From: Sialis fuliginosa
Taxonomy: Eukaryota > Arthropoda > Insecta > Megaloptera > Sialidae
Length of the DNA: 64,000 nucleotides
NCBI GenBank assembly: GCA_961205875.1
Contig: OY540810.1
Span: forward strand, 25,792,001-25,856,000
Reading direction: 5' to 3'
This document shows positions 3,363 through 60,690 of this stretch, in pieces; position 1 is the first letter of the stretch; the number at the start of each line of letters is the position of its first letter. The translations under genes were made by a program, and so were the position numbers. The notes under the pieces were generated by a model. The model worked only from the letters and a program-made list of their open reading frames with translations. It was not told where the DNA came from and did no database searches.

Positions 3363-4359
3363 CAGTAGCGTAGCGTGGGGAGCCAGAGGGGATGTCTGCC
3401 CTAGGCGGCACTTTGATAGAAGTGGCAAATTAAAAGAAATTATTAAATTTATTATGCAGGGTGGTGCATTTAAAGTGTTACAGATTTTTGTCTCGGAACC
3501 ATACATATTTGAAAGAAATGTTTCAACTAAAAAATGTTTGATTGTGGGGGGGTAATGAAATAGTATTATTTATTTGTTGTTTTAACGTGGCCATCAAGGT
3601 TATTTGAAGATCAACATCATTTTTTTAAATAAGAACTTATAGTTTCTATTTAGTGATCTTATTCTATGTAAAAAAAACACGAATCTTTTACTGAAAACTT
3701 TTTTGAACAACCTAAGTTTTCCAGATATCTAACGAAATAATTCGAGATTTTGGACTTTCAAGAATTTAAGAAAAAAGTACAACATACAAAAAATGTTTAA
3801 TTTAGTCTAATTAAACTTGGAGAATTATTTTAAAAATTTTAAAACTTTTTCTAGTTAACAAAAAAAAAATACAAAATGTTAAAAAAAATTCTAGAATAAT
3901 TCTCCAAGTTTGATTAGATCAAAATAAACATTTTTTTGCATCTTGTACTTTTTCTCTAAAGTTGATGATTTTTGAGTAAAGTAATGTTTAGGTTGTTCAA
4001 AAAGAAGTTTCCAGTGAAAGATTAGAGTTTTTTCACGTAAAATTAGATTACTAAAAGAAAACTATAGGTTCCTATTTAAAAAATGATGTTGATCATCAAG
4101 CATCCTTCAAGGTAACGTTAAAATAATAAATAAATATTACTATTCGATTACCCCCTTACAACCAAACATTTTTTGGTTGAAACATTTTTTCAAATATGCG
4201 ATGGTTCCGAGATAAAAATCTGTAACACTTTAAATCCCCCACCCTGTATAAATATAAAATTATTATTTAAAAAAAGGTCTTCAATTTTCTTATTTTCTCT
4301 TAGTCTAGGGGGAAATTTGCTATCTGCTCTGGGTAGCAGAAACCTATGCTACGCCACTG
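3363..4359. mobile_element. Foldback/MITE element, ~1 kb palindrome with CAGTnGCGTAGC ends
   Basis: The whole unit is an inverted repeat of roughly 400-nt arms. Left-arm segments such as TGTTACAGATTTTTGTCTCGG and GAAAGAAATGTTTCAACTAAAA reappear reverse-complemented at 4160-4230. The tips read CAGTAGCGTAGCG and, complemented, CAGTGGCGTAGC. No intact transposase. Short relatives with the same end occur at 7686-7822, and single ends near 13175, 24640 and 36700. Confidence 0.75.
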
Positions 4360-6067: not shown

Positions 6068-6435
6068 GTGCCATAGATGTACACACAAAAAAAATAGTGT
6101 GTATGTTGCCGTTAAGGCAGGTAAAATAAAGAACATACACAAGATTTCCTCTCTGTTTATTTCCCCTCGCATCGTTCAGCAACATAGCAATACTCCTAGC
6201 GCCACTAAGCAGCAAAAATAAATAGTTTTGGTTTTCTGTCAAACGTAGAGAGAGAATGTGTATAGAGATTTTAATTCGCATTCAATTGCAGCGTTTTTAT
6301 TTGGACATTTTTGTTGTAATAGCAGGTTAGATTTTGTGCCATAGATGTGTACAAAAAAAATCATGTGTGGCATGTGTGTATCATATATATATTTATTATT
6401 CTGTGGTGTGTATGTTGCCGTTAAGGCAGGTGAAA
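6068..6435. repeat. Two direct copies of a short unit ending GTTGCCGTTAAGGCAGGT
   Basis: The unit GTGCCATAGATGT ... GTGTGTATGTTGCCGTTAAG occurs at 6068-6126 and, with an insertion of TGTG/TATA repeats, at 6336-6435. A 17-bp palindrome TGGTCGAATTTCGACCA follows the second copy. Probably a tandem repeat fragment of a mobile element. Confidence 0.5.
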
Positions 6436-8098: not shown

Positions 8099-10384
8099 AC
8101 ATTATTAATATAAGAAACATCAGTTTATAGCGTAACTTACCAAGGACAAGGTAGGATGCACGTATATGTATACAGGGCTGCTTCCAGTCTACTCCTGCAG
8201 TGAGTTATAATTTGCGTTTTACATAAAAAGTAAATTAAATTACCTAGTCAATATCTCTATCAATATAAAACAGCGACAGTAATTTTTAAAGTTAAATTCT
8301 AAATTATATACATGCAGTGATATTGAACACAAGCTTAATTAATAAAAATCAACACTTTTAAATTATTATTGGCAGTTTTAGTGTTTTATTTCTTTAATAA
8401 ATTACAGTATGTATTAGTATGTAATATTTCTAAACAAATAATCAAAATATACTTTTTATTTACTTATAATTATAATTAATATTAATTTAGTTGATTGAGA
8501 CAAAATAAATGAATTATATATTTTTTAGTTTAAGACCTCGTTACATTGTGTATTAATAGTTAGGTCTTAAGCTACTCTAAAAGTAATGAACGTATCGTTT
8601 TATTTTGAAAGTATCAGAAAATAGATATTCACTAATTAGTATGAGTCATGAATCATTAACTTTACTTTCAAAATAGTTAAATATTGCATGATTATATTAC
8701 GAGAAGCATTTTTAAAATTAAAACAACAATTCTATTTTTTTCTGGATTTAAGAAATGTCCAAAATCCTAATTTCAAGTATTATGAATTTCTATTCAGTGA
8801 TATATAATTATTTTAAAACAAGGGCCATCAATATCTACGAAATATTCTGTGGGAACTAAACCCTCATCGATGGTCCGTGTTTTAAAATTGCAATGAATTA
8901 AGATTAAAGGTATTTAAATACTTTAAAGGTTTAATCATAACGTAAACATTGATAACAATAATAAATCATATTTTGTTATAATTTTATCTATATTTTCTCC
9001 GGCCAGCGGTTGAAAAAATAATACATTCAAAAACCTTTAATCTTTGTATAAGTAAAATTAGTACAAATATTACATTGTAATCAAGCGTCATTGATACAAT
9101 CCTTTACGTTTCTTTTAATATTATTTTATCATTTGTCCCATATATTATTTCACTAATAAAACAAATCTTATAGTAAAATATTAATATTACAACAATATAA
9201 ATATATTTGTAATATTTATTGCATTCGGAAGTATATTTTATTGTAATCTTATTATTTAATGGACAAGACATTTATTATCATCTGAATAAATGTCTAAAAA
9301 ATCTAGTAATAGTACAAATGACTTTTTTAACGACATTTTATATCATCAAATATTTCATTACCGTGTGTGAAACGTCATAACAATGAATAATTTATTAACA
9401 ATTAAATAAAATAACAATTGCTTCTATATTATATTACAGAAGTGCCCAATTATTTTTTTATCAAGAGCTATATTTAATTTTATAAACCTCTAAAAAAAAG
9501 CCAAGTTGAGTTTGTTTTTACTATAAGCTTAGGAAATATGAATTATTAAAAATTGTATTTCTCTGCAACTTCCATATCATTTCTAAAAGGCAATGGGTAC
9601 CTCTGTACGATCATTTTACTGATTTAGTCTATTTCAGTTACAGTGGTAAAATTCTTATAAATAAATAAATATAATGCATATCGTCGTATAAAAATGTCTA
9701 TTTGTATTTAGTAAACTATTATCAATAGATTATATTCATATAATCATATACAAAATCGACTAAATTTGTAGTGATTTATTCTCTTTTATATAAAACAAAT
9801 TGTCGATTTTGTTGGTAATAAATTTTACATTTAGAAATATAAATTGGATGACTCGATATTATGTCAAATTCGTGTTAAAGGAAATAAATATTGTAAAATA
9901 AATTAGTTTCATATAAATTTTTTAAGACAAAATTTAATCTATTAATATAAAAGAAAAAAACAGTTTCTACACTAAAGAAAAATCCTTTAATACGAACTGT
10001 GCTTACATCCTTTTCTCTTAACTTACATCATTTAATACAAAAATTACTCTACATATCTATCGTGTAAAAAAATCTGCAGTTTCGATGCAATTCTTTATAC
10101 ACATTCTGATCTTTTCTTAATCAAAAATATCCATTATTATTACACACAAACAAATATATTATAGTATTTAAACACCAGTACTTCAATTATACGAAAGAGT
10201 TGTTAGAAATCAATTATATAATTAGTTTTTATACCATATTGTTTGTATGTAATTTGTCAGATATTTTCGAGACATGTACTGCAAAGTAAGGAACATATGA
10301 AAGGGTGTATTCTACAATGATATTACGTCTTACATTTAATTATCTAAGGTGAGATGAAAAGTGGTGCCGAGCCTCGATGTGACC
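8099..10384. other. Intergenic AT-rich DNA, including the probable DCX-EMAP 3' UTR
   Basis: No exon-like or RNA-gene sequence apart from the hairpin at 8811-8887. The right part must contain the minus-strand 3' UTR. A minus-strand AATAAA exists near 9774-9779, but the real cleavage site is unknown. Confidence 0.3.
8811..8887. repeat. Short imperfect hairpin, 77 nt
   Basis: TTTTAAAACAAGGGCCATCA at the left pairs with TGATGG-TCCGTGTTTTAAAA-type sequence at the right: about 20 of 22 pairs around a ~30-nt loop. It could be a tiny MITE or a miRNA-like stem; nothing here decides which. Confidence 0.4.
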
Positions 10385-10525
10385 TCAGGTTATGGCTTCA
10401 AGTACGACAAAAGATTCGTTTTCGGATTCGAGCTCTTCGAGTTGTTCGTAATAATCTATTTCTAGATCTTCATCAGTACTAACACTGGCGCCATCGACTG
10501 GGCCACAATAGGTCGGCTCTTCTTG
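10385..10525 (-). CDS. Candidate stop-codon readthrough extension of DCX-EMAP
   Basis: In the same frame after UAG, 46 codons run to a TGA at 10387-10385. They read QEEPTYCGPVDGASVSTDED, then LEIDYYEQLEELESENESFV and VLEAIT. The stretch is acidic, uses balanced codons and is clearly less AT-rich than flanking DNA. The stop context UAG-CAA is the known leaky type (UAG followed by C or CAR). Alternatives are a sequencing error or a recent nonsense change at TAG, a stop bypassed by alternative splicing (GAG|GTAACT lies just before it), or coincidence. Confidence 0.45.
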   Translation of the reverse strand, partial: QEEPTYCGPVDGASVSTDEDLEIDYYEQLEELESENESFVVLEAIT

Positions 10526-10679
10526 CTATTCGTCAGTTACCTCCCATACCATTAAGGTTGCGTCACTACCACCGACTGTTACAAGGTTTCTGTCGTTGTA
10601 GAGGAATCGTGCGCATGCTATTTGTCCACTGAATACTTTCTCTTCATTATATTCAGCTTTAGGACTGATACATGGGTAC
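10526..10679 (-). CDS. DCX-EMAP: DCX-EMAP exon 17, last blade and UAG stop
   Basis: [21 protein letters not shown] then [20 protein letters not shown] and [10 protein letters not shown], stop TAG at 10528-10526. The blade is complete at VWE, where EML proteins normally end, so this stop is a credible terminus. The next codon is CAA and the frame stays open for 46 codons (see the separate entry). Confidence 0.92.
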
Positions 10680-13600
10680 CTGTATATTAACAAAATTATT
10701 AAAAACATGGTCTTCAGAAAAATTATTATGTAATATTTACCTGAAAAGCCTGAGATATCCATCGGTATCTCCGCTAATAAGTAAATCATGTGCTGAAGAT
10801 CTATTAGCTGTGCTAATTATAGATGTCATTGGATAGAATCTGTTATTCCACATTCCTATAAATGAGTTTACATAATATTAATTTAGTGTTTAATTATACT
10901 GAATTTATATTTAATACTTACCGGCAACTAGGAAGCCAACGGTAGAGTTATACGTATGCCATTTGGTATCTTTCATAGCAATTGGGCTCTTTTCTGGTGA
11001 TAATGACCTCACATCCCCTACAAAAAAAATGTTGTCAATAATAGAACTTTAAACATGTTCTCGTGGACAGATATTAAACTGAAATTATAACAATTACTTA
11101 CAGAAAGCTAAATCATAGTCAGCAGTTACTGTCTGCAAGTAGTTACTATCAGAACTCCAATCTAATTGCATAAGTGGTTGTGATCCACGTATTTTATTTG
11201 ACTTCTTGTACGTGAATCCATCTCTAGCTACTCTGAATAAGTAGATACTGCCGTTTTGTGATCCAATTGCCAGTACATCACCTGCTGGGTTGAACCCTAA
11301 ACAGTTCAAAGGTGAACCACAAACTCGAATTGTTGCTACCATAGCGCCTGTTTCGGAATTGAGTATAACAAGATGTCCTTCGGTGCTTCCAACGGCCAAT
11401 GCAACTCCAAACGGATGGAAACCAAGTGAGACACATTCGTATGGAATCTAAAATAATAAATAAAAACAATTTTTGTTCAAAGGTGTTTTTTCCTTAAAAA
11501 GACAAATTAGATGATATTTTATTCACTGCTCAGCTCTTAAAGTGATAGCGTGATTAAATGTACCTATAACACTTCTGAGATTTTAAGTACGATGGTACAG
11601 GTTTCGCCATAATCAATCCAACTGTTTTAAAATTAATAATAAACATGTTTACACATCTAAACAATTTAGGACATTAAAATTTGTCTCATGGGATCACCAA
11701 AGAAACGTTACATTTGGAAAATTCACTCTAACCTACGATTTTGCATAAAAATGTTTACACATCAATAAATTGATAGAATAAAATTAAATTACCTGGGTAT
11801 GCCAAATAAGTTTATTTTTCCTCCAAAGCGCAATGTATTTATCATGACCAGCAGTTGCAAACATTTCATCATCAGGATGTACAGCCAATCCCCAAAGTTG
11901 TCTTGCATGTCCAAATACGATCTAAAACAATGTACATACATTAATGTAATAAAACTATAGAAATCACAAATTGAATTATGTTATTTACTTGATTGAATCG
12001 TCTTTGCAATGATCCTTCCATGATATTATTTCGAGTAGTTCCAACGTAAATATTACCATCGTTTCTTCCTGGTCTTTGGGGATAAATGCTTCTAACACCT
12101 CCAGCAGATTCTGGTAACTAAAGAGTATTTTTAGAAACAAAGGGTATGTTTTGCTAAATTATACAATGATAATTTGAAATATTATGCATAATAATAAAGG
12201 TTACGATAACAAAAGTATGTAAATTTCATTTTTAGAGTACATGAACGGTAAAATATGCTACTATATACAGCTTCAAAAACATAAAAATGGCTTCTCCAGT
12301 TTTTCAATTTTTGATGATTAAAAATTATCTCTACTCCAAGATCAATTTTTCGTTTCCCGAATTGATTGTAACTTCGAGCCTCACGATATCAAAATCAGGC
12401 CCTATATTAATTGTACTTACTTTAGTATCTGTAATACGTTTATAATTTTGCAAGGAATCCCATGCAGCAATTTTACGATCTTTTTCTCCACCTGATAATA
12501 ATGTGCCTTCCGACAACATAACTAAAGAACTGATTCCTTTATTGTGTGCCTAAAAGAAAACAAAATAGATACAATAAGAATATTCAGCTAAAAAATTTTA
12601 TAATAAAAATATACCTCAAACTCCATTCGTACAAAGTATGCTCCATCACTATCTACACTATAAATTGTAATAAATCCATCACTGTCTGCAGTTACTACGT
12701 CACCATCTTGCTCAAATTGTAGACTAGTAACGTGGGTTCGAGATGGCTGAAATGAAAATCCATTGTTGTAACATTTAAATTACGTTTTGGGATTATAAAA
12801 TATGAAGCAATCTTTAGAATTGTGCACTTACAGGTTTAATAATATCTGTTCTTTCGAAAAATCCGTCTTTCCTACGATTCCAGAAAGTGAGATGGCCTTT
12901 CCCGTGCGTTATTAGAAGATTGTCATCTAACGGATGGAAAGCAGCTCCAGTTAACTCTTCTTGTAGAGTCTATAAAACAAACATTAATTTATATCAGAAT
13001 GTAAATATTTCCTTCTCTTAATATTTAGTCCAGGAAAATTTTCAGACATAAAGCATGGGAAGTCGAACTATAAGTATTGTTTGGTTCCGATTCACGGTTC
13101 ATGAAAATTAATCTGATTTATATTAGTTTGAACTTCTATCTATAGGACATTTCCATTTAAAGCATAACCTAATGCAATGGCGTAACGTGGCGTTTCCGCG
13201 CCCACGGTGAAAACTGAAAATGTCTATACGTATAAATTAATATATTTTTCATAATTTTACTCGCAGGTTGAATTTGTTATCATAAAACACGTTTATAAAT
13301 ATCGGAGACCGATACCGAGCCACGATCTACACTATACATTGGAAAAGGCTGATGTAGGGATTCGAACAGCAACCCTTATAGGAAATTACAAAGGGGCCAC
13401 GGTTAGCTCAAATTTGCGCTAATGCTAGCCAACACTGGGCCAAGATACAAAAGATAACTTCGTTCAAGACTCAGCCAAGGCTTGTCGTGCCAAGGCTGGC
13501 CCAGAGTTGGTCCAATCTTGGGTAAAGAATAGGTGACTGTGACTCGAAGCTCGGTATCTGAAGGTTGGCCTAGACTCGAACCAATATCGAAAAAGCAACA

Positions 13601-19600: not shown

Positions 19601-22600
19601 AAAAAATTTAAATTAGCTACTTTGTAATAAATTCTTACACATTGCTAAAATCGTCATTTTTGGGACTTTTAGGTTAGAATATCTAAAAATACCTGAGCTA
19701 ATTGAGAAAGTTGGGGATCGGATTTGGTTTAAGCATGCCAAAAACCTTCGAAATCACCTATTTAAGTGACTCAGGCAGAATAAAAGTATTTTTGGTTATT
19801 TTATTTCTTATAATATTCAATTTTCATATTCGAAAGTTATATTATTAATATTAAAGTTTGTATAAGAAGGATACACCCATTCAAGGAGTAATTTCTTCTC
19901 TGGCGGTGAATTGTCTATAGGCGCATGGTGTATTGGTGGGTAGAATGTTCTTCTAAGTCCTCGAATTGTGACACGGATAGGCTCTTCTTTTAAAACTTCT
20001 AATAATGTGTAATCTATAATTTAAATACATACAATTATAATCGACTGTCAACCATTAAAAACCTAAACGAATATCCATTTTTACTGCCCAGAAATAATGT
20101 ATATTTTTTAATTTTGGTAATTTATAAAATGTTATTTGTTTTAACTGTTAAAATACACGTTAAGGGTAGTAACCACCTTTTAAATGTTGGTCAAAAATCG
20201 AAATTCATTATTTTGCGTATTGTTAGACAAAGTTATTTGATTTTAATAATTATTTATTTACAATCGTAGGAGAGGCAATATTTTATTAAATTGTATCCTA
20301 AGGCGGTGGCACTTAGTTTCTAATACTTTTTAGTTTTTTTATTAAAAATTAAAGAAATATTCAATCAAAAATTATCAAATTTAAAATTTCACTGCACCCT
20401 TTCGAAATCAATGTTGAAATCAAATCAAGAAATTTCGATATTTAGAAATTTTTCAAGGGTTAAATTGTACACTTACTGCAACTTTTAGCAAATATATCAA
20501 GATTAAAAAATCGAAGGGTATACTATAAAAACTTTATGAGTAGAAAATTGGTTAGTTGATCAGATCATTTTTCTCAACATTTTTGTGGATATCTTCGTTT
20601 TTTCTTTTGAATGGCCTAATTTACACATCGATAATACAGCAGTTTTTTTTACAAACCATGCTCTTAAATACTTAAAATCAGTCAACAATACAAAAGAATA
20701 AAACGCATAGACAATTTCACAAAAAGCTTATTATAATAGCAAGAATAACTGCGTTAATAGTAGTTTCTATAAAATTGATATTTATTATTTTTGTTAACAT
20801 GCAATGCTACATTATAGATATGCAATAAATATCATAAAATGATTTATCTTTATTGATTTAAACTGCTGGATCGTTGATAATAATAGTTCAAGCCCCTTTG
20901 ATAATATATGAATATATGATTTGGTGAATGAATATGAATGTGAAAATTTTATTTGTAACATTTTCTGTTTGATTATAATCGAAAAAAGTTCATTGAGCTG
21001 CATATCAGGGGTTGCAAACTAGTTGATCGTTTACATCTAATTGTAAGAATTTTTGGCTTCTATAAATCAATTAAAAATAATCTCAATGTATTAAAGCAAA
21101 GAAACTTCTCAAACCAACCACTTGTTCTACATTAATCTACATGACCCAAAGAGATTGTATACATAGAGACAGTGAGCTAACCGAAAACGATAACTGTCGG
21201 TAGAAAGAGAAAGAACAAGATTATGGACCACAGAATAGATACTCTAGAAACGATAGTCCACGTCACGTATGTAGATACTCAATATTTTCTTTCTCTTATT
21301 ATTTATGATTGACGCTGACTTATATAAAGTGCTATGGCTCACTTATTGTTAGTCTATGTCATGCAATGTCTTTTACATGATTTCTTCTTTAAACAGCCAG
21401 TATTTGATGAAACTATTTATGTTTTGACGCGAGCATGAATGCAACAAAAATATGTCACACTTTGAAAGCTTATATCTCTAATAATTGTAGAGCAATAAAT
21501 AAAACACTGATCCCTCAATCCTAAAATACAGTAGCATAAAAAGTATATACAGGCTGAGTTATATCGTGAGGAAACTACAGACCTCCAAAGATTTGAATAC
21601 GTGTTATCGATTTCCAGTATCAACCAATGATTATTTAGATTTGGGATGTATCTGGCCAGTGGACCCTTTGATTTTTATCTATTTTTTTTTTTAATTTTGC
21701 TTATGTTTGGCACTTTTGTAAGTAAATAGTAAAATATATGAGTTATCCATAAATAACATATTAAAATTTTAGACTTTTATCTATACTTTGCTTTAATGAT
21801 CGAATAACCTTAAATGAATTATTTTGAAGTTAAAACGACTATATTTTAAATATAATTTAGATCACTTGCTAAAATAACAGTTTTTTTAGCAACCAGGCTG
21901 GTCAGTTTGAAAAGATTCACAGTAAGTATGTATTTATCTAATTATCGTTTTTTACAGACTAAACTGATCTAATCCGGGAATTAAAAAAAAACTACGTTAA
22001 AATACATTTCAATATCGCATTCATAAAAAGCAACAATGATAAATTAAACAAAACAAAACATAATCAACGACACAACAAACAAACAAATGATGTTTGAAAT
22101 AATGACCGTTTCCCCTGACGACCTCACCATCGGGTGCGTAGAGCGCCCGCGGTCTGCTCTTGCTGCGCGCCCGTCGTTGTACCTTTCCCATGTCCTCTAC
22201 GACAGCAGGCGGAGGGGGCGCGGTGCTGATCCCCGCGCGTGAGCGGGAACGGCGTATCGGCGACGCCATCAGACCGCCGACGCCGCCCACTCCTAGATAG
22301 AACGTGTCTATGTCCGCGAACTCGTTGCGCAGCTGTGAGAAGCTACGTACCTGTAATGATACAATGTTGGCGTGGAGATGCTGTTTCTGTTGGTTACGTA
22401 TTTGTTTGGCGGGCTAGGAGACATTGCTTCTGATTGGTTGTATATCTCTATATATAAAAAATGAATGTTTGTTTGTATGAGGCTTATAGACTCGGGAATT
22501 ACTGAACCGATTTCAATGTGAGTTTCACCAATATTTAGATAATTTTTCTGTGTAAGTTCGTGGTTATTAATATTTTATTAAAACCTAAGATTTAACATGA

Positions 22601-25600
22601 AAGACTAAAAAAATCTTTTCTCTTAAATATTTTTTCGAACAAATACTTAGATGATTTTTGACACATACTTACAATTAAATATTTTGAAATATATTGATTG
22701 AACATCGAAATATAAAAAACATTTCACTTCCAAAAAAGGTAAAATATCGAAATTAATTATTATAAATATGATTGTTGGTAACATATTTATTTATTTTTGA
22801 TTTTCATACAAGACGGGACCTGGTGTTTCCTGGCAGTTTGAAAATATAATTCTGGACGTTATTGTAGGAGGTTGTAAGGTGCTCTTGTTTAAATATCGTA
22901 GAGCCACCATGTACAGAATGTTCAAAATTCATTTTCAAATTTTAAGATCTTCAAAGTTATTCTTCTCAACTTTTTCAAATGGAATACCTTATATATTTTT
23001 AACGATGTTGTGTAGAACGAACATTTTTTTTATGTAGGTACATTCTTATTACTATTTGTAACCATTTTTGATTTATTCCGCAAAAAGTATAAAATTCAAC
23101 AATATTTATTTAAAAAATAGGTTTTTTCAAATAAAACAAAACACCATATACATGGCGGCTCTACGATATTTAAAGAGTACCCTACAACCTCCTACAATAA
23201 GGTCCATATTTAAGTGGAGTAATGAAAAATCAATTTTAGATATGAATAAACATCCCAAATAAATATGCAAAAATATTCAGCGTCAGGGCATTCCATTAAA
23301 AAGTACCTTAATTAAGCGTACCCCACTTTTTTGTAACACTGTATAATTTACAATAATTTACCCATAGTTTACATCTGCATTAGAAAGATTTTTTTATCAG
23401 TTATGGTGTACAAGCTATCGAACTTCCACGCACTATTGCCCCACCCTGTACAATGAAGATAAAATGTCTTATATGGAGATGGACATACTTGGGTAGACGC
23501 AAATAACGAATAGATGTTAAAAACGTACTTTATGTTAAACAAAGTATTTCTTGATACGAGTTATTTAATTTAATTTGTTTATAATGTGTAATTACATTTA
23601 GCATGTACACTATAAGTTTATATAATAAAATCATATATACTACCCTATAAAGATTATTCATGAATTGTACGAGGGTTAAAGTAGTTTTTTGTATAAAAAC
23701 TTGAAACTATTTTTTAGATCTACGTGTCTAAGTAACTGACATTAATAAGGTGAAAATTAAAATAATTTTTACAAGAATAAATTGAATATATACGAAAATT
23801 AAATTTGCATGATTATGATCGTTTACATCAGTTATTAGAATTTTTTCAAGGAGCTTTGTTAAAATCAATAATTAAATGCCATATTTTATATACATATATA
23901 GTCCGTTGCATACACATGTTTTTATATGTATATATTTTCTTATCATTGTTTCATTCAATTTAAAAGAGTGATTGCTAAATAAAATAGAGATATAACCTTT
24001 TCTAGTTAGATTGTAGTATAGATTGCAACGCAAGGCGTTAAAAATAAATATTTATAAATACTGAATTTTTTTACAAGGTCTCAAAAGAAAACTTATTTTT
24101 GGATAAATAGAATAGCTGAATTTCTGAGAAGGAAGCTGGATACGCAAGTATTACATAAGAAAGGGGGGTAGATTTTTTCTTACTTCTGCTCGCAAAGTTA
24201 ATAAAATTACTTTTTTGCCTAAAGATTAATGTTCTTTAAAAAAAATTTGATTTTTGTTTTGATTTTAATGTCTAATAAAAATAAATAAACATATTTTATG
24301 GCTTATCATTTAAAGAAGGGGGGGGGGGGGAGTTTAGAATTTTCTTATTTTTGCTTATAAAGTGGGTGCGGTGGGGGTTTGAAATTAACCAATAATGCTT
24401 ACGTAATACTTACGTATATACATTGTACACTTTACATATTATTTCTAATTTACAAAAGATAAAAATACATTCAATTGTAATTGTCTTTACTCAATAGTTC
24501 TAAATATCTGGTTTAATTGTCAGTGTAATTAAAAAGAGGGGGTGTCCCCCCGGTGGGGGGAAGCAGTTGGTTATACCATATAATACATATGTTTTGTAAT
24601 GGTACCTTTGCTTGTAAATATCCCTCCCCTAAAAAATGGTTACGCCACTGTTTGTTGTTTTTTAAAGAAAATTCTTATCTATTCACATAATACGTATTAT
24701 TAAGAGTAAGGAAGATTTAAGATGTCAGCCCGAATAAAATATACATGTATAATGCCCGGTATTATAAAAAAATTGTTTGAGTGCAAAAGCAAATTAGCTT
24801 CCAGCTAACGCTATCTGCTAGGCTATACTACTCAATATATTTTTATAAATAATAACTTTACGTACTTCTTGTCCATGAACTGTGTACATTCTCTTTGCTC
24901 CACTCATTTTTAACACTTGTCCCAAATCGTCCAATACTTCTTCAAAAGGCTGAGAAGTTCGTAAATTTAGAAGAACACGACACTGTAAAAAAATTATAAA
25001 TAATAATTACTTTTCCATGTTCTTACAATCACCATAATACGTAGTGATTAAAATTTTGTACAGTAAAATTACAGACAAATTACACAGTTGCAATTTTATT
25101 TTAATTCCTGCTAAGCAATGGAACGTACACGTATCTTAGATAAGGAAAGTCAATGGATGCATAACAGACCACCTAGTCTATTATACTAAACTGTAATTAA
25201 AACTTTATGGTGACCATTTTTCCCAAATATAATTTTCAATTTCTATAAGTAGTTATGTATCCCATAGTCGTTTTTATAATATGCACATAAATATGCTTAA
25301 AATTAAACTTAAGTCTGTAAGAGAAATGATGGTTTCGAATAGACGTTTCTCTGTTAATGAATTATCACTGAAATACTTTTAAAGGCAATATAAAATATTT
25401 ATTTTAATTTTATTCCAAACAATTAACTTTATTTTAAAATCCGAATGATACGCCGCTGACTTTACGGAGCACGTTTTTGCGGAATACACTGGTTACAATG
25501 TTACAATGATTCTTATATATTTTCTTGTTTATAAAACGTATTATAAAAAGTCGAACATTCAAAATCATCATTTTTGGAAATTTTACGTAAAGATATTTCG

Positions 25601-28600
25601 AAAACCTGGCACGAAAGAGTAAATTAGGTAACTAATTCGGTTTTAGTATGTCCCCAATTTACATTTCTATGTTTTTTCGTTGCTCAATGTATTCAAATTA
25701 TGTAGATGTTTTGTTAAAATATTTATTTGCTTCCAATGATCGGCATTAGAAATAAAAAAATGTATTTAAAATAATATAATTACCTGTACAGAATGATCTA
25801 GATTGTTAATAATACGTATGATCCGTCCAGAACTTGGTTTAATCCCCCCTCCAGGGGGTGGAACATCTGGTTCTATAATGGACGCTTTTCTACTTCCTCC
25901 ACCTTTACTCCAACCTTGTCCTCCTGTATTCGGAGACGCGTACCAATTACCATTCTTCTTGCCATAGCTTGCTGTCTGGAAATAACATTTTATTAATATT
26001 AACTCATAATCAAATTTATTTTTGATTTGATTCAAATAAGACGTATACTCAAGTCTAACTTTTAGATCTACACTAAACCCGAAATGAAGTTTGAATTTTA
26101 TATTTAATTTCTTTTAAGTATTGGCCTTTAATCGTTTGCAATGCAGAAAAATATTTTATTTATTAACAATTTTATATTGTTTATAAATATGAAGAATAAA
26201 TTTATATATTGTAAAGACCAAATAGATTGTAAGATACAGATATCGGTTTCGAATAAGTTATGTTAAAAAACAATTTTAACTTTTTATATTATGATTCCAT
26301 CAACAAATAAACGAAAATTTAAAATTTTAATCGGTTATTAATGCAAATAATTTAAATTGAATCATTACAATGTCAATATGGCACGAAAAGCTCCAATAAT
26401 TCTCCTTAACCCAATTTAACTGAACCTGAGTCTACATAGATTTCTTCTTTAATATTTGAATTTGAAAATTGAGATTGGAAATAAATATTATTTATTTGTA
26501 TAAAATTGAAATCATGTTTACTTGTTGAAATCCGGTTTGACCGGAAATCATTTTATTTAATGATAACCTCATTTTGCTATCGATGAACTAAATCATGTAA
26601 AGATATTAATAAGAAAAGATTTAGTAAAATGCTACGCTATTAATTTAATTATAGTAATTTAAATCATTCATATAAATAAATACACATTCAGCAAAAAAGC
26701 TTTTGGATACTTAATCCAATTGTAATTTTATATGTAACATATAATATTATATGCATGATTATATAAAATTAGATTGAAAAAATTGTGGTTCACTTATTGA
26801 AATGAATACATACAAAAAGGTGTATAAATGATATCTTTTAAAAATGTTTATTTTGTATATAAACTTGTATTTACTGTTGAATTTCAAATCAATTTAATAA
26901 ATCGTTTTGTAGTTTTTTTATATGTTGATAATACTATTATTTCGATTATTTTTGATTCCACAAAATCATCATTGGCAATGAATTAAGCCTTGTTTACACG
27001 AGCTTTAGTACTAACCTCTTGCACCAATATTGGGACATGTAAACCTGAAGTTACTGAAGTATTAGTACTGAGTGTTAGTAAAAATGCCTTCAACACCTTG
27101 AAAGTGCTTAATGTAATTGGTTAGTACTAATGATTAGCACTACGTTCGTGTAAACAAAGCTTTATAAACGTTATGGCAAGAACAACTTACACATTATGCA
27201 AGTAGTAAAAATTCCGATGTAAAGATATTTAGTTCCTAACACCTCCACCATAAAATAAAAAAGTCAACAATTGGAAAATTTGAAGGATCAATAATTTTCA
27301 TAGATTTAAATAAAAATTAAATATAATTGTACTAATTAGTGACAAAGTAATAAATTAAAAATTAAGATATGTATTCATTTAGACCTATGTTTTTTGTACT
27401 TTATCAAAATTCTAAATGCATGTAATTATTAAACGATTTATTGTATTGATTTGAAAGAAGATATGTTTTCTTTTTAACCACCTGGTATATTTTATATTGT
27501 GATATAACGTTTGGACCATAAAATTCAGCAACTATAATAACAAAATAATAATCATTTTACGGTTATATATAAAATTACATTGAGATCAAGTAAATTCAGC
27601 ATCAAAACAGATTAGTAATATAACAACAAACAATCAAACAACAATATAACAAAGCAATACCTACTAACAATAAGATTAAGATCAAATACTAACTTTTAAT
27701 AGAAAAATAGAAATTACTTATTAAGCATTGAGGACTATTTTTTTACTGTCAGTATAGAAAAAAATATTCAATAAATTTGAATACTTTAATTACCTACATG
27801 TATTTGTTTTGAATAAAACTAATTGTAGCTATTGCCCAAAGAATGTATTTTTTATTAATTTTTTTCTGCATATTTAAAACTATAATATGATATTTTTATC
27901 GATTGACCTTTATGGTTTTAAATTTGCGTTATGACTATAAATAAATCAATTTTTATCAATACCACAGACGTGGTTGCCTTGAATATTTTTTATACATAGT
28001 ATTTATATCGTGTCGATACAGTATTGATGGTATTGATATGTGTGGTGTAAATTATTCACACAATGCAATTAAGCTTAAAGAAGTCAATTCGGCAATTCCA
28101 ATTCAGTATAATAGAAATAGAAATCACATAAGTAAACAGGACCGTAAGTACCACCGGGGTAGCCGAGGCAGTACCCCGGACCACCCGAGCATAGAGGGGC
28201 TCCGCAGCAGCGTAAAAATTGGGGTCGGCAAAATTGAAAAAAAAGGTCATGGATTATGAAAAAAGGTCTTAAATTTTTATATTTTGCATATAGTGAGGGC
28301 CCCTCGGCCACTTTCTGTCTCTAGTTACGGCCCTGGAAGAAAATAGATAATGTGATACAACGAATGTAAAAAATATAATAAATATTGAGAGACTGTACTT
28401 TAGCTCCCTTAAGAAGAATTTTCGGACATATGTTTATACGAAGTTTTTTGCTTATTGTAGTTATTGTCGTGCAAACATCATTTCGATAGAATTTAAAAAA
28501 AAACAGGGGATGAAAAGAACAATGATATCTATTATTCAAACGTGAAATTTTAAAGAAATCGACCGATTTAAATTCGAGATAATCGTTATCAAAGTTTACA

Positions 28601-33570: not shown

Positions 33571-33832
33571 TGAGGCGGTGAGTTCTTCCAAAACTCGTTC
33601 ATTCCATTTTTTTTAAATTGAGATGTCAGTGTATTTTGAAAGAACTTTTGGCATTATTTCATATTATAATGTCAGTTTTGAGCAAAACTCGCTCAACCAT
33701 ATTATAACTAAGCGAATTTGACTCAAAAGTGACATTACAATATGAAATAATGCCAAAAATTCTTACAAAATCCACTGACTTCTCGATTTTTTTTTTAAAT
33801 GGAACGAACGAGTTTTGGAACTCACCGCCTCA
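33571..33832. mobile_element. Palindromic MITE, TGAGGCGG ends, TA flanks
   Basis: 262 bp, almost wholly self-complementary: TGAGGCGGTGAGTTCTTCCA at the left, GGAACTCACCGCCTCA at the right, with TGGCATTATTTCATATTATA inside both arms. TA on each side suggests a Tc1/mariner-type target. Confidence 0.75.
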
Positions 33833-36354: not shown

Positions 36355-37364
36355 TATTACTTACAAAATAACCAAGACGTTCCATTAAAATTTCAGGATT
36401 TGTGAAGTGTTCTGTCGTAGGAAAAGTTTAGGAAGCACTGTTCTACATCATACTTCAATATCAACCAAATTGAGTTATTGAGGGTAAAAAATATATTGAA
36501 AAAACCTCATAGAGAAACCATATTTAGTTTGTGCAATAAAGTTTTAACAGGTACGATTTTTCTAAAATATCTTAAAACTAATAAAATTAAAATTGATAAA
36601 AGCCCAGCTCTAATGAATAAATAAGAAAGCACTCCGTCACAGCACTATATTATTCCGTCGCGGGAAAGTACCTACCATATAGGCCAGTCAGGATCCACTC
36701 AGGGCTAGCTACGTCACTGGTTACGATACTATATTATTGTTGGTTACGATATTTCATAAAACAGATATCGGTGCTTAGAATACATTGTCTGGAGGAATAC
36801 GATAAAAGTTTTAACAGATTTTTTAGCGGAAAAGAGAATTTTGTCGCTTATATATGAGATTTTTAGAATCGATAACTCAATTTCGCAAAAAGTGTATCTT
36901 ACGATACTTTGCTTTGGAGGGGACGATATAGAAATAATTTAACCAGGTATGTTATAATTTAGGTATATAAAAACATAGTACCTAGCCATGGAATACGGAA
37001 TTTTATAATTTACGGTTTCAATATTTTATTTTATTAATTTAGGTTACTATGATTATGTCTCTTTAAAATATTTTGTCGAACAATTAAATGATTTTTGACA
37101 CATATTAACAATTAAATATTTTGAAATGCCTATATTGATTGAAAATTTAAATATGAAGAAACATTTCACTTCTATGAAAGGTAAAATATCGAAATTAATT
37201 ATTAGGTTTGGTGTAAATTTTTCGAAACACAATTTTTCGAATCACAATTTTTTGAATCAAAATTCTTCGAATGAACAATTTTTCGAAAAATTTAAGTTTT
37301 ATTGTTCAAATTTTAATTAGTTAATAAAATATTAAGTAAAGTAATATTTGGACATTTTACGATA

Positions 37365-43736: not shown

Positions 43737-43800
<64 letters not shown>

Positions 43801-44250
43801 TTATAAAAGTACTTATATAAAACCGTATATCGATATTTTAAATGTACATTTTAAATGTGACAGAAAATCTTCGGTCCTCTCACTTAATTAATAGCTTTCA
43901 TTATCAAAAAGAACCAAATATACATATTTGCATTTATTTCGATGATTTTAATAAATAACATGACAATTATAAAAATTTAATTTTTCCGGAAAGCAATTTG
44001 AAAGTTATTATTATTATTATTAAATTTCGACACAAAAAAAACAAATTTTGCTGTAAGCACCAAGTCAAGAAATACCAAGATATTTATTTATAATCATTAA
44101 CAATTTTTTGAAACATTCAAGTATTACATAAGCACATTCTCGTTCATTTTGGACCCCCTCTCCTATGTAAAAAAAATATCGTCTACCTCCCTATAGAATA
44201 AGATGTAATAAGAAGTTTTTTTTAAATTTAATTAATAATTTTATTTATAG
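42028..44250. other. AT-rich DNA with a 61-nt poly-T tract
   Basis: An uninterrupted T run spans 43738-43798. The block before it (GGCCATCGGGCATAGCGCCT) is less AT-rich. The tract may be the A-tail of a minus-strand retroposon, but no body could be identified. Confidence 0.4.
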
Positions 44251-60150: not shown

Positions 60151-60690
60151 ACACAGCTACAAAAAAAATACGGAGCCAAAAAAGCAACCTATATATCATT
60201 CTAGTATTGGTCGAGCATAGTCGAAATTCAATTTTTTGGAATTTTCTGCCTACCAGTTTTTTTATTTTAGTTTGAATTTTGGGCTTAGGTTGAATTTTTC
60301 CAAAAAAGGGGGGAATGACAAAAAGGCGACCTACATATATAGCATTGTAGTATTGGTCGAGCATAGTCGAAAACCAAATTTTTGAAATTTTTTGCTTATC
60401 GGTTCTTTAGCTTGAATTTTGGGTTTAGTCAACTTGGAACAATTCAACCTAAACCCAAAATTCAAGCTCAAATAAAAAAAAACTGGTAAGCAAAAAATTC
60501 AAAAAATCTGGGTTTAGACTATGCTCGACCAATACTACAATGCTATATAGGTCCTTTTTTAGTACCCCCCCATTTTTGGAAAAATTCAACATAAGTCTAA
60601 AATTCAAGCTCAAATTAAAAAAAACTAATAAGCAGAAAATTCCAAAAATTTAGATTTTTTGGCTCTGCATTTTTTTTTGTGTAGCTGTGT
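60151..60690. mobile_element. Palindromic foldback with nested repeats
   Basis: 540 bp. Ends ACACAGCTACAAAAAAAA and its complement. TATTGGTCGAGCATAGTCGA appears twice in the left arm and once inverted in the right arm, so the arms are themselves built from a tandem unit of about 155 bp. Confidence 0.7.

Follow-up and report, generated by a model that had tools for sequence, protein, structure and literature searches.

A candidate stop-codon readthrough extension enclosed by a predicted RNA stem in an EML-type gene of Sialis fuliginosa

The nearest described counterpart to the locus treated here is the Drosophila gene dfr (vvl). Its UAG is followed by CAAUCA, a stem extends from +9 to +59, and the stop codon is read through with insertion of glutamine (PMC8417969, PMC13170385). 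Deletion of this stem or a 3-nt shift reduces readthrough (PMC13170385). The type I consensus for readthrough is UAG-CAR-YYA, and the 3' structures of readthrough sites, often extended stem-loops, typically start some 8 nt beyond the stop codon (PMC3542737). Readthrough is abundant in most of the insects tested, and in D. melanogaster 333 readthrough candidates compare with an estimated 17 recent nonsense changes, cases of which had to be excluded in that survey (PMC5100048). Predicted structures lie 3' of 9 to 10% of the readthrough candidates of mosquito and fly but of <1% of the remaining transcripts, and the 175 orthologues without readthrough have none; the windows of this survey measured 100 nt, in which a stem like the present one would not show, so that the ratio is not directly transferable (PMC5100048). 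Readthrough regions usually score intermediate between coding and noncoding sequence, and UAG, compared to UGA, is used less often and loses its readthrough more easily (PMC5100048). In many species readthrough has been seen at UGA only (PMC4528330). The published counts for structures, for readthrough candidates against nonsense changes, for abundance in insects, and for the bias toward UGA provide the prior for readthrough applied to the present locus.

The window, the whole stretch of 64,000 nt analyzed from the S. fuliginosa genome (assembly of 392 Mb in 20 contigs), contains on its minus strand a gene of the EML type, as identified by Pfam matches and PDB alignment. A HELP motif is found upstream (69.2 bits against a cut-off of 27, in a hand-joined pair of segments), and Beta-prop_EML_2 is matched twice, with 108.1 and 94.8 bits (cut-off 90). 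A further upstream piece of 58 residues from the first propeller reaches 66.3 bits, under its cut-off of 88.2. The HELP motif together with the EML tandem propellers places the gene among the EML/EMAP proteins. Its last exon, with the final residues VWEVTDE, is the end of the second β-propeller. The match of 108.1 bits (6.5e-31) was obtained with this exon joined to the two preceding ones and stops 3 residues short of the UAG. When the exon is aligned with EML1 (PDB 4ci8), the matched region closes at the equivalent point, MQWRV, this stretch being weak alone. The human EML family shares the second propeller, which here ends just before the UAG; its isoforms arise by alternative splicing, mainly N-terminal, and the available portion of that account does not mention readthrough (PMC12182296).

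The doublecortin part is less clearly marked. The DCX domain shows one weak match at 24800-25000 (E 0.01, 16.3 bits, under the cut-off of 22), and three longer frames of 20001-26000 contain no doublecortin domain at E 0.1. The EML-type gene is perhaps DCX-EMAP, with a weakly supported doublecortin part. As a protein, the last exon has a single match in the 392-Mb genome, namely, itself, and scans of viral contigs and of bacterial/archaeal genomes turned up no relative. Among the matches listed in literature searches, no work treating DCX-EMAP as a readthrough gene was found, and these searches yielded nothing joining CG42247 to readthrough or EMAP-like proteins to stop codon readthrough. The main texts of PMC5100048, PMC13170385, and PMC4528330 do not contain the term "emap"; the fly orthologue may already be among the published supplementary candidates.

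Other features of the window and the genome were recorded alongside this gene. The plus strand holds at 61-2970 a gene in four open pieces with a methyltransferase-like stretch, which we take to resemble the 7SK capping enzyme MePCE/bin3. Positions 33601-33779 are probably a strong inverted repeat (z of -13.6 on the plus strand and -12.1 on the minus strand in 179-nt windows), and 60321-60499 are probably a second one (z -10.0 on the plus strand). The sequence GTGTATGTTGCCGTTAAGGCAGGT was seen by eye twice, at about 6097-6122 and 6406-6431, some 300 nt apart, and perhaps belongs to a repeat element. A tandem array of 4.8 copies of a 15-nt unit occupies 37216-37288, and a T tract of 65 nt (96% matches) occupies 43738-43802. 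In the genome, five tandem units of TTAGG, the arthropod type of telomere repeat, match the forward strand at 2,537 positions and the reverse strand at 3,660, with many overlaps among these matches, and the reversed control gives none. On one contig (G000:C1), interstitial TTAGG arrays lie far apart in at least 18 places, perhaps as telomere-targeted elements or old fusions.

Table 1. Features at the candidate readthrough site of the EML-type gene (window positions)
Feature	Position	Strand	Remarks
Last coding exon before the UAG	10529..10679	-	Open frame; 50 codons and one shared base; ends VWEVTDE
UAG stop	10526..10528	-	Context GAA-UAG-CAA-GAA
46-codon acidic second ORF (candidate readthrough extension)	10388..10525	-	Codon score, position information
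UGA closing the extension	10385..10387	-	Coding signal ends here
5' arm of predicted long-range stem	10490..10517	-	23 pairs; helices 5+3+7+3+5; pair probabilities 0.89-1.0
3' arm of predicted stem	10366..10396	-	Last extension codons, UGA, 19 nt of 3' UTR
Optional extra 5-bp helix	10518..10522 with 10360-10356	-	Probability ~0.53
ESFVVL, extension codons 37-42	10400..10417	-	Fits canonical LIR (Atg8-binding) pattern

A sequence-only reading of this locus had reported 46 in-frame sense codons after the UAG followed by UGA, and these coordinates prove exact on the minus strand. It had also described the stretch as protein-like and strongly acidic, which agrees with the analysis: the translation, QEEPTYCGPVDGASVSTDEDLEIDYYEQLEELESENESFVVLEAIT, contains 15 D/E residues and no K/R (net charge, -15), and a codon model derived from 968 codons of the window's two genes, with the extension excluded, assigns it 21.4 bits. 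The further remark that the stretch is less AT-rich than the DNA on both sides holds for the downstream side only. The GC content of the extension is 0.442, compared to 0.314 in 10200-10384, 0.235 in 9000-10380, and 0.284 in the whole window, but the other side (10526-10680) reaches 0.432. The GC-rich stretch continues for about 40 nt beyond the UGA, in part because the 3' arm of the stem described below lies there.

The openness of the frame is weak evidence when taken alone, with 398 of 14,206 noncoding 46-codon windows (2.8%), 36 of 2,000 shuffles of the downstream untranslated region (UTR), and 157 of 5,000 shuffles of the extension being open. An open and acidic-looking 3' UTR without coding history draws its plausibility from these 2 to 3% of comparable stretches, yet none of the 398 open noncoding windows and none of the 157 open shuffles equals the codon score, and this reading is very improbable. 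Glu and Asp codons, which are numerous, account for most of the score, and amino acid composition contributes more than codon choice, as 285 of 5,000 synonymous redraws made with noncoding codon frequencies reach it. The G+C content by codon position is 0.674/0.304/0.348. The position information is 23.1 bits, reached by 3 of 20,000 shuffles; for the last exon, 74 of 5,000 shuffles reach the corresponding value, and for the 46 codons 3' of the UGA, 1,455 of 5,000 do. The third ORF, which follows the UGA and has 14 codons, has a codon score of -0.23 bits. The five remaining frames of the extension DNA contain 1 to 4 stops each and score lower; an antisense gene over the extension is unsupported. 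An in-frame coding signature is found between the first and the second stop in the composition of this single genome. Since this composition passes the controls and the signal ends at the UGA, the sequence up to that codon, judged by its makeup, is protein-coding or was so until lately.

The coding signature is also what a recent nonsense change would leave behind. Here, the 46 codons would be an ordinary C terminus, the UAG would be new, either fixed or polymorphic, and the extension would be a fossil that has not yet decayed. The frame is unbroken and its composition is exon-like or better: the score per codon is 0.46, compared to 0.29 to 0.42 in five tested exons of this gene, which themselves belonged to the training set of the codon model. 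This value above all five exons fits a stop gained recently and counts against readthrough. The acidic run TDE/QEEP, moreover, spans the UAG without interruption, and recent nonsense changes are a known confounder in a published survey (PMC5100048). On the other side, a nonsense change leaves both the stem 8 nt past the stop and the UAG-C context unexplained, and the 17 estimated cases in D. melanogaster stand against the 333 readthrough candidates mentioned above; such a change is unlikely here. A related explanation is an error of assembly or sequencing in which a sense codon was misread as TAG. One base decides this question, and the sequence has one copy, so there is no second allele for comparison. 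The assembly is contiguous, though contiguity does not give base accuracy, and the stem would then be a coincidence, which leaves an error improbable. Taken together, a recent nonsense change and an error are still rather unlikely.

The stop codon context agrees with published readthrough sites in one half of the motif. The sequence-only reading had called UAG-CAA a leaky context, and UAG is indeed followed by CAA; the positions +7 to +9 are GAA, in contrast to the YYA of the consensus (PMC3542737), so that CAAGAA at +4 to +9 departs from CARYYA. The stop is also UAG and not UGA, which together with this departure weighs against readthrough. The accompanying statement that insects use readthrough widely is in line with its abundance in most of the insects tested (PMC5100048).

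A long-range RNA stem, absent from the earlier reading, is predicted around the extension (Table 1). After an 8-nt spacer from the UAG, CAAGAAGA, 28 nt pair with 31 nt across the second stop to form 23 bp, and the core stem starts at +12 counting from the U of the UAG. The mean pair probability is 0.98 to 0.995 between 20 and 37°C in four contexts of up to 701 nt. The fold from just after the UAG to 10347 has an energy of -51.0 kcal/mol (z -3.35, 0 of 200 shuffles). In a second run (z -2.95), 3 of 500 dinucleotide shuffles folded as strongly; with the codons kept and their order permuted, 2 of 500 did so. Folds ending at 10385, 10400, or 10430, where the 3' arm is wholly or partly absent, show z values from 0.01 to -1.24. 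The region 3' of the other gene's stop, serving as the negative control, gives z +1.10. Rfam contains no match at E 1 within 9800-11000. The 201 nt of 10330-10530 match the 392-Mb genome once, at their own position, and with this single match a repeat origin of the stem arms is unsupported.

The strength of this signal varies with the stretch that is folded, and the stem is not unique in the window, both of which count against readthrough. The first 99 nt from the UAG, approximately the window size of the published surveys, show no unusual fold (z -0.54), and 16 short folds contain small hairpins only. A 401-nt stretch gives z -1.63 (7 of 100 shuffles) and pointed to the stem. Shorter and longer folds were tried first, so the nominal significance of the stem has to be discounted a few-fold. 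A duplex of the same strength (-35.3) occurs at 5 of 482 window sites with an equally GC-rich arm and at 101 of 11,946 sites with arms of 13 to 23 G+C, with sites ≤60 nt from the target left out; all the sites that attain this strength fall into 9 clusters. Among windows of equal length, 29 of 798 have z ≤ -2.95, and 1 of 63 does so at a GC content of ≥0.38. As modeled, the stem offers moderate evidence for readthrough, which its position at the spacing described for stimulators strengthens.

Two further explanations act on the mRNA itself. Alternative splicing could remove the UAG, for example, from the donor GAG/GTAACT at 10540 to the AG before 10432, which would continue in frame as VWE-LESENESFVVLEAIT. 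The donor-like sequence is present, four further phase-0 GT sites lie in the exon, and 10432 is an in-frame acceptor for phase-0 donors, to which the acceptor pairing was applied with the phase determined by hand. This acceptor has 9 pyrimidines in 20 positions, compared to 11 in the acceptor of the exon itself; since the latter is hardly richer, the pyrimidine count does not speak against it. The part removed, codons 1 to 31, nevertheless scores 16.7 bits as coding, and the acceptors at 10484 and 10478 (10 of 20 pyrimidines), which are in frame with the upstream exon, would leave out the final 150 coding bases that precede the UAG. Splicing of this kind is improbable. A-to-I editing of UAG to UGG (Trp), after which all ribosomes on an edited mRNA would continue, is very improbable as well. 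In its favor, the UAG is mostly paired in the 701-nt fold (unpaired probabilities of 0.09, 0.03, and 0.01 at 37°C), and DCX-EMAP counts among the sensory genes of flies (PMC8044454, PMC3048163). In the 481-nt fold, however, the UAG is mostly unpaired (0.86, 0.80, and 0.56 at 37°C), and the main stem starts after the UAG, so that no stable duplex over the stop codon is established.

Programmed stop-codon readthrough yielding a minority isoform whose tail carries a charge of -15 is the probable explanation of the locus, based on the sequence and on modeled folding. It is favored over its rivals on account of the stem, which would be expected under neither a nonsense change nor an error. In its support, the coding composition reaches the UGA and does not extend beyond it, UAG-CAA is present, and the prior drawn from the surveys of insects points in the same direction. 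The sequence-only reading had proposed such an isoform, and this remains the best-supported explanation, more so with the predicted stem, while the stop context bears it out by half. In the proposed mechanism, the majority of ribosomes would terminate at the UAG and release the ordinary EML-type protein. A minority would decode the UAG by a near-cognate tRNA, probably inserting glutamine as in Drosophila dfr, and the product would gain 46 residues that end in SFVVLEAIT. The UAG-C(AA) context and the 23-bp stem would assist this step, with the 5' arm beginning 8 nt after the stop and the 3' arm covering the second stop together with the 19 nt of 3' UTR that follow it.

As in Drosophila dfr/vvl, the UAG of the locus is followed by CAA, and a stem, here a predicted one, starts no more than about 12 nt from the first base of the UAG (PMC8417969, PMC13170385). 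The positions +7 to +9 are UCA in dfr and GAA here, the dfr extension of 286 residues, said to hold disordered regions, contrasts with 46 residues, and a local hairpin of about 50 nt contrasts with a predicted stem that encloses the entire extension. This likeness is not taken as a sign of common ancestry. A probable vvl/dfr orthologue was itself located as a positive control in the same genome (L002, 853-2124; G000:C4 near 234973) with an open frame of 424 residues; it ends with UAG-CAUUUC followed by a second ORF of 24 codons, in which it differs from the fly gene, whose UAG is read through (PMC8417969). The extended 3' stem-loops of RNA viruses resemble the present stem as long imperfect stems that start some 8 nt past the stop (PMC3542737). 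The alphavirus and coltivirus examples combine them with UGA-C and an epsilonretrovirus example with UAG-R (PMC3542737), whereas the stop here is a cellular UAG-C and the 3' arm crosses the second stop. The type I site of tobacco mosaic virus (UAG-CAR-YYA) has CAA after the UAG in common with this locus but continues with YYA in place of GAA. If real, the case would add to the known readthrough of insects, and its unusual trait would probably be a stem that encloses the extension and crosses the second stop.

The tail itself suggests two possible functions. EMLs bind the acidic tubulin tails through a basic N-terminal region (PMC12182296), so that acidic residues added at the C terminus could reduce tubulin binding or direct it elsewhere. 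Alternatively, the tail may recruit an Atg8-family protein through ESFVVL, which fits the canonical LIR pattern taken from PMC5119064 and is a lead toward a candidate Atg8-binding motif. The pattern arises in 13,684 of 200,000 residue shuffles of the tail (6.8%) and does not occur in any of nine further exon pieces examined (968 residues). A Pfam search with the extension gave only a subthreshold match to ATG4_LIR (E 0.1, 13.4 bits, below the cut-off of 24), and a PDB search gave one chance-level match (E 1.4). A more far-reaching model, which is improbable, combines these elements into a self-enclosed readthrough cassette. Here, the helix between the sequence just past the first stop and that across and beyond the second would promote readthrough, delimit the extension, and be opened by the reading ribosome, and the product would be an EML with a switchable Atg8-binding (LIR) tail.

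In insects readthrough is frequent, and where a possible mechanism is legible in the sequence, a case is easily tested. Some 170 nt contain the stop context, the spacer, the stem, and both ends of the extension, so that a single reporter construct suffices. DCX-EMAP marks the ciliary dilation in the hearing neurons of the fly (PMC3048163). If readthrough takes place, a relative of this marker would have two forms, one with and one without the tail of charge -15, set by termination rather than by splicing. If the cassette and the LIR tail were also true, ciliary and axonal microtubules would be tied to autophagy at a rate set by the efficiency of termination.
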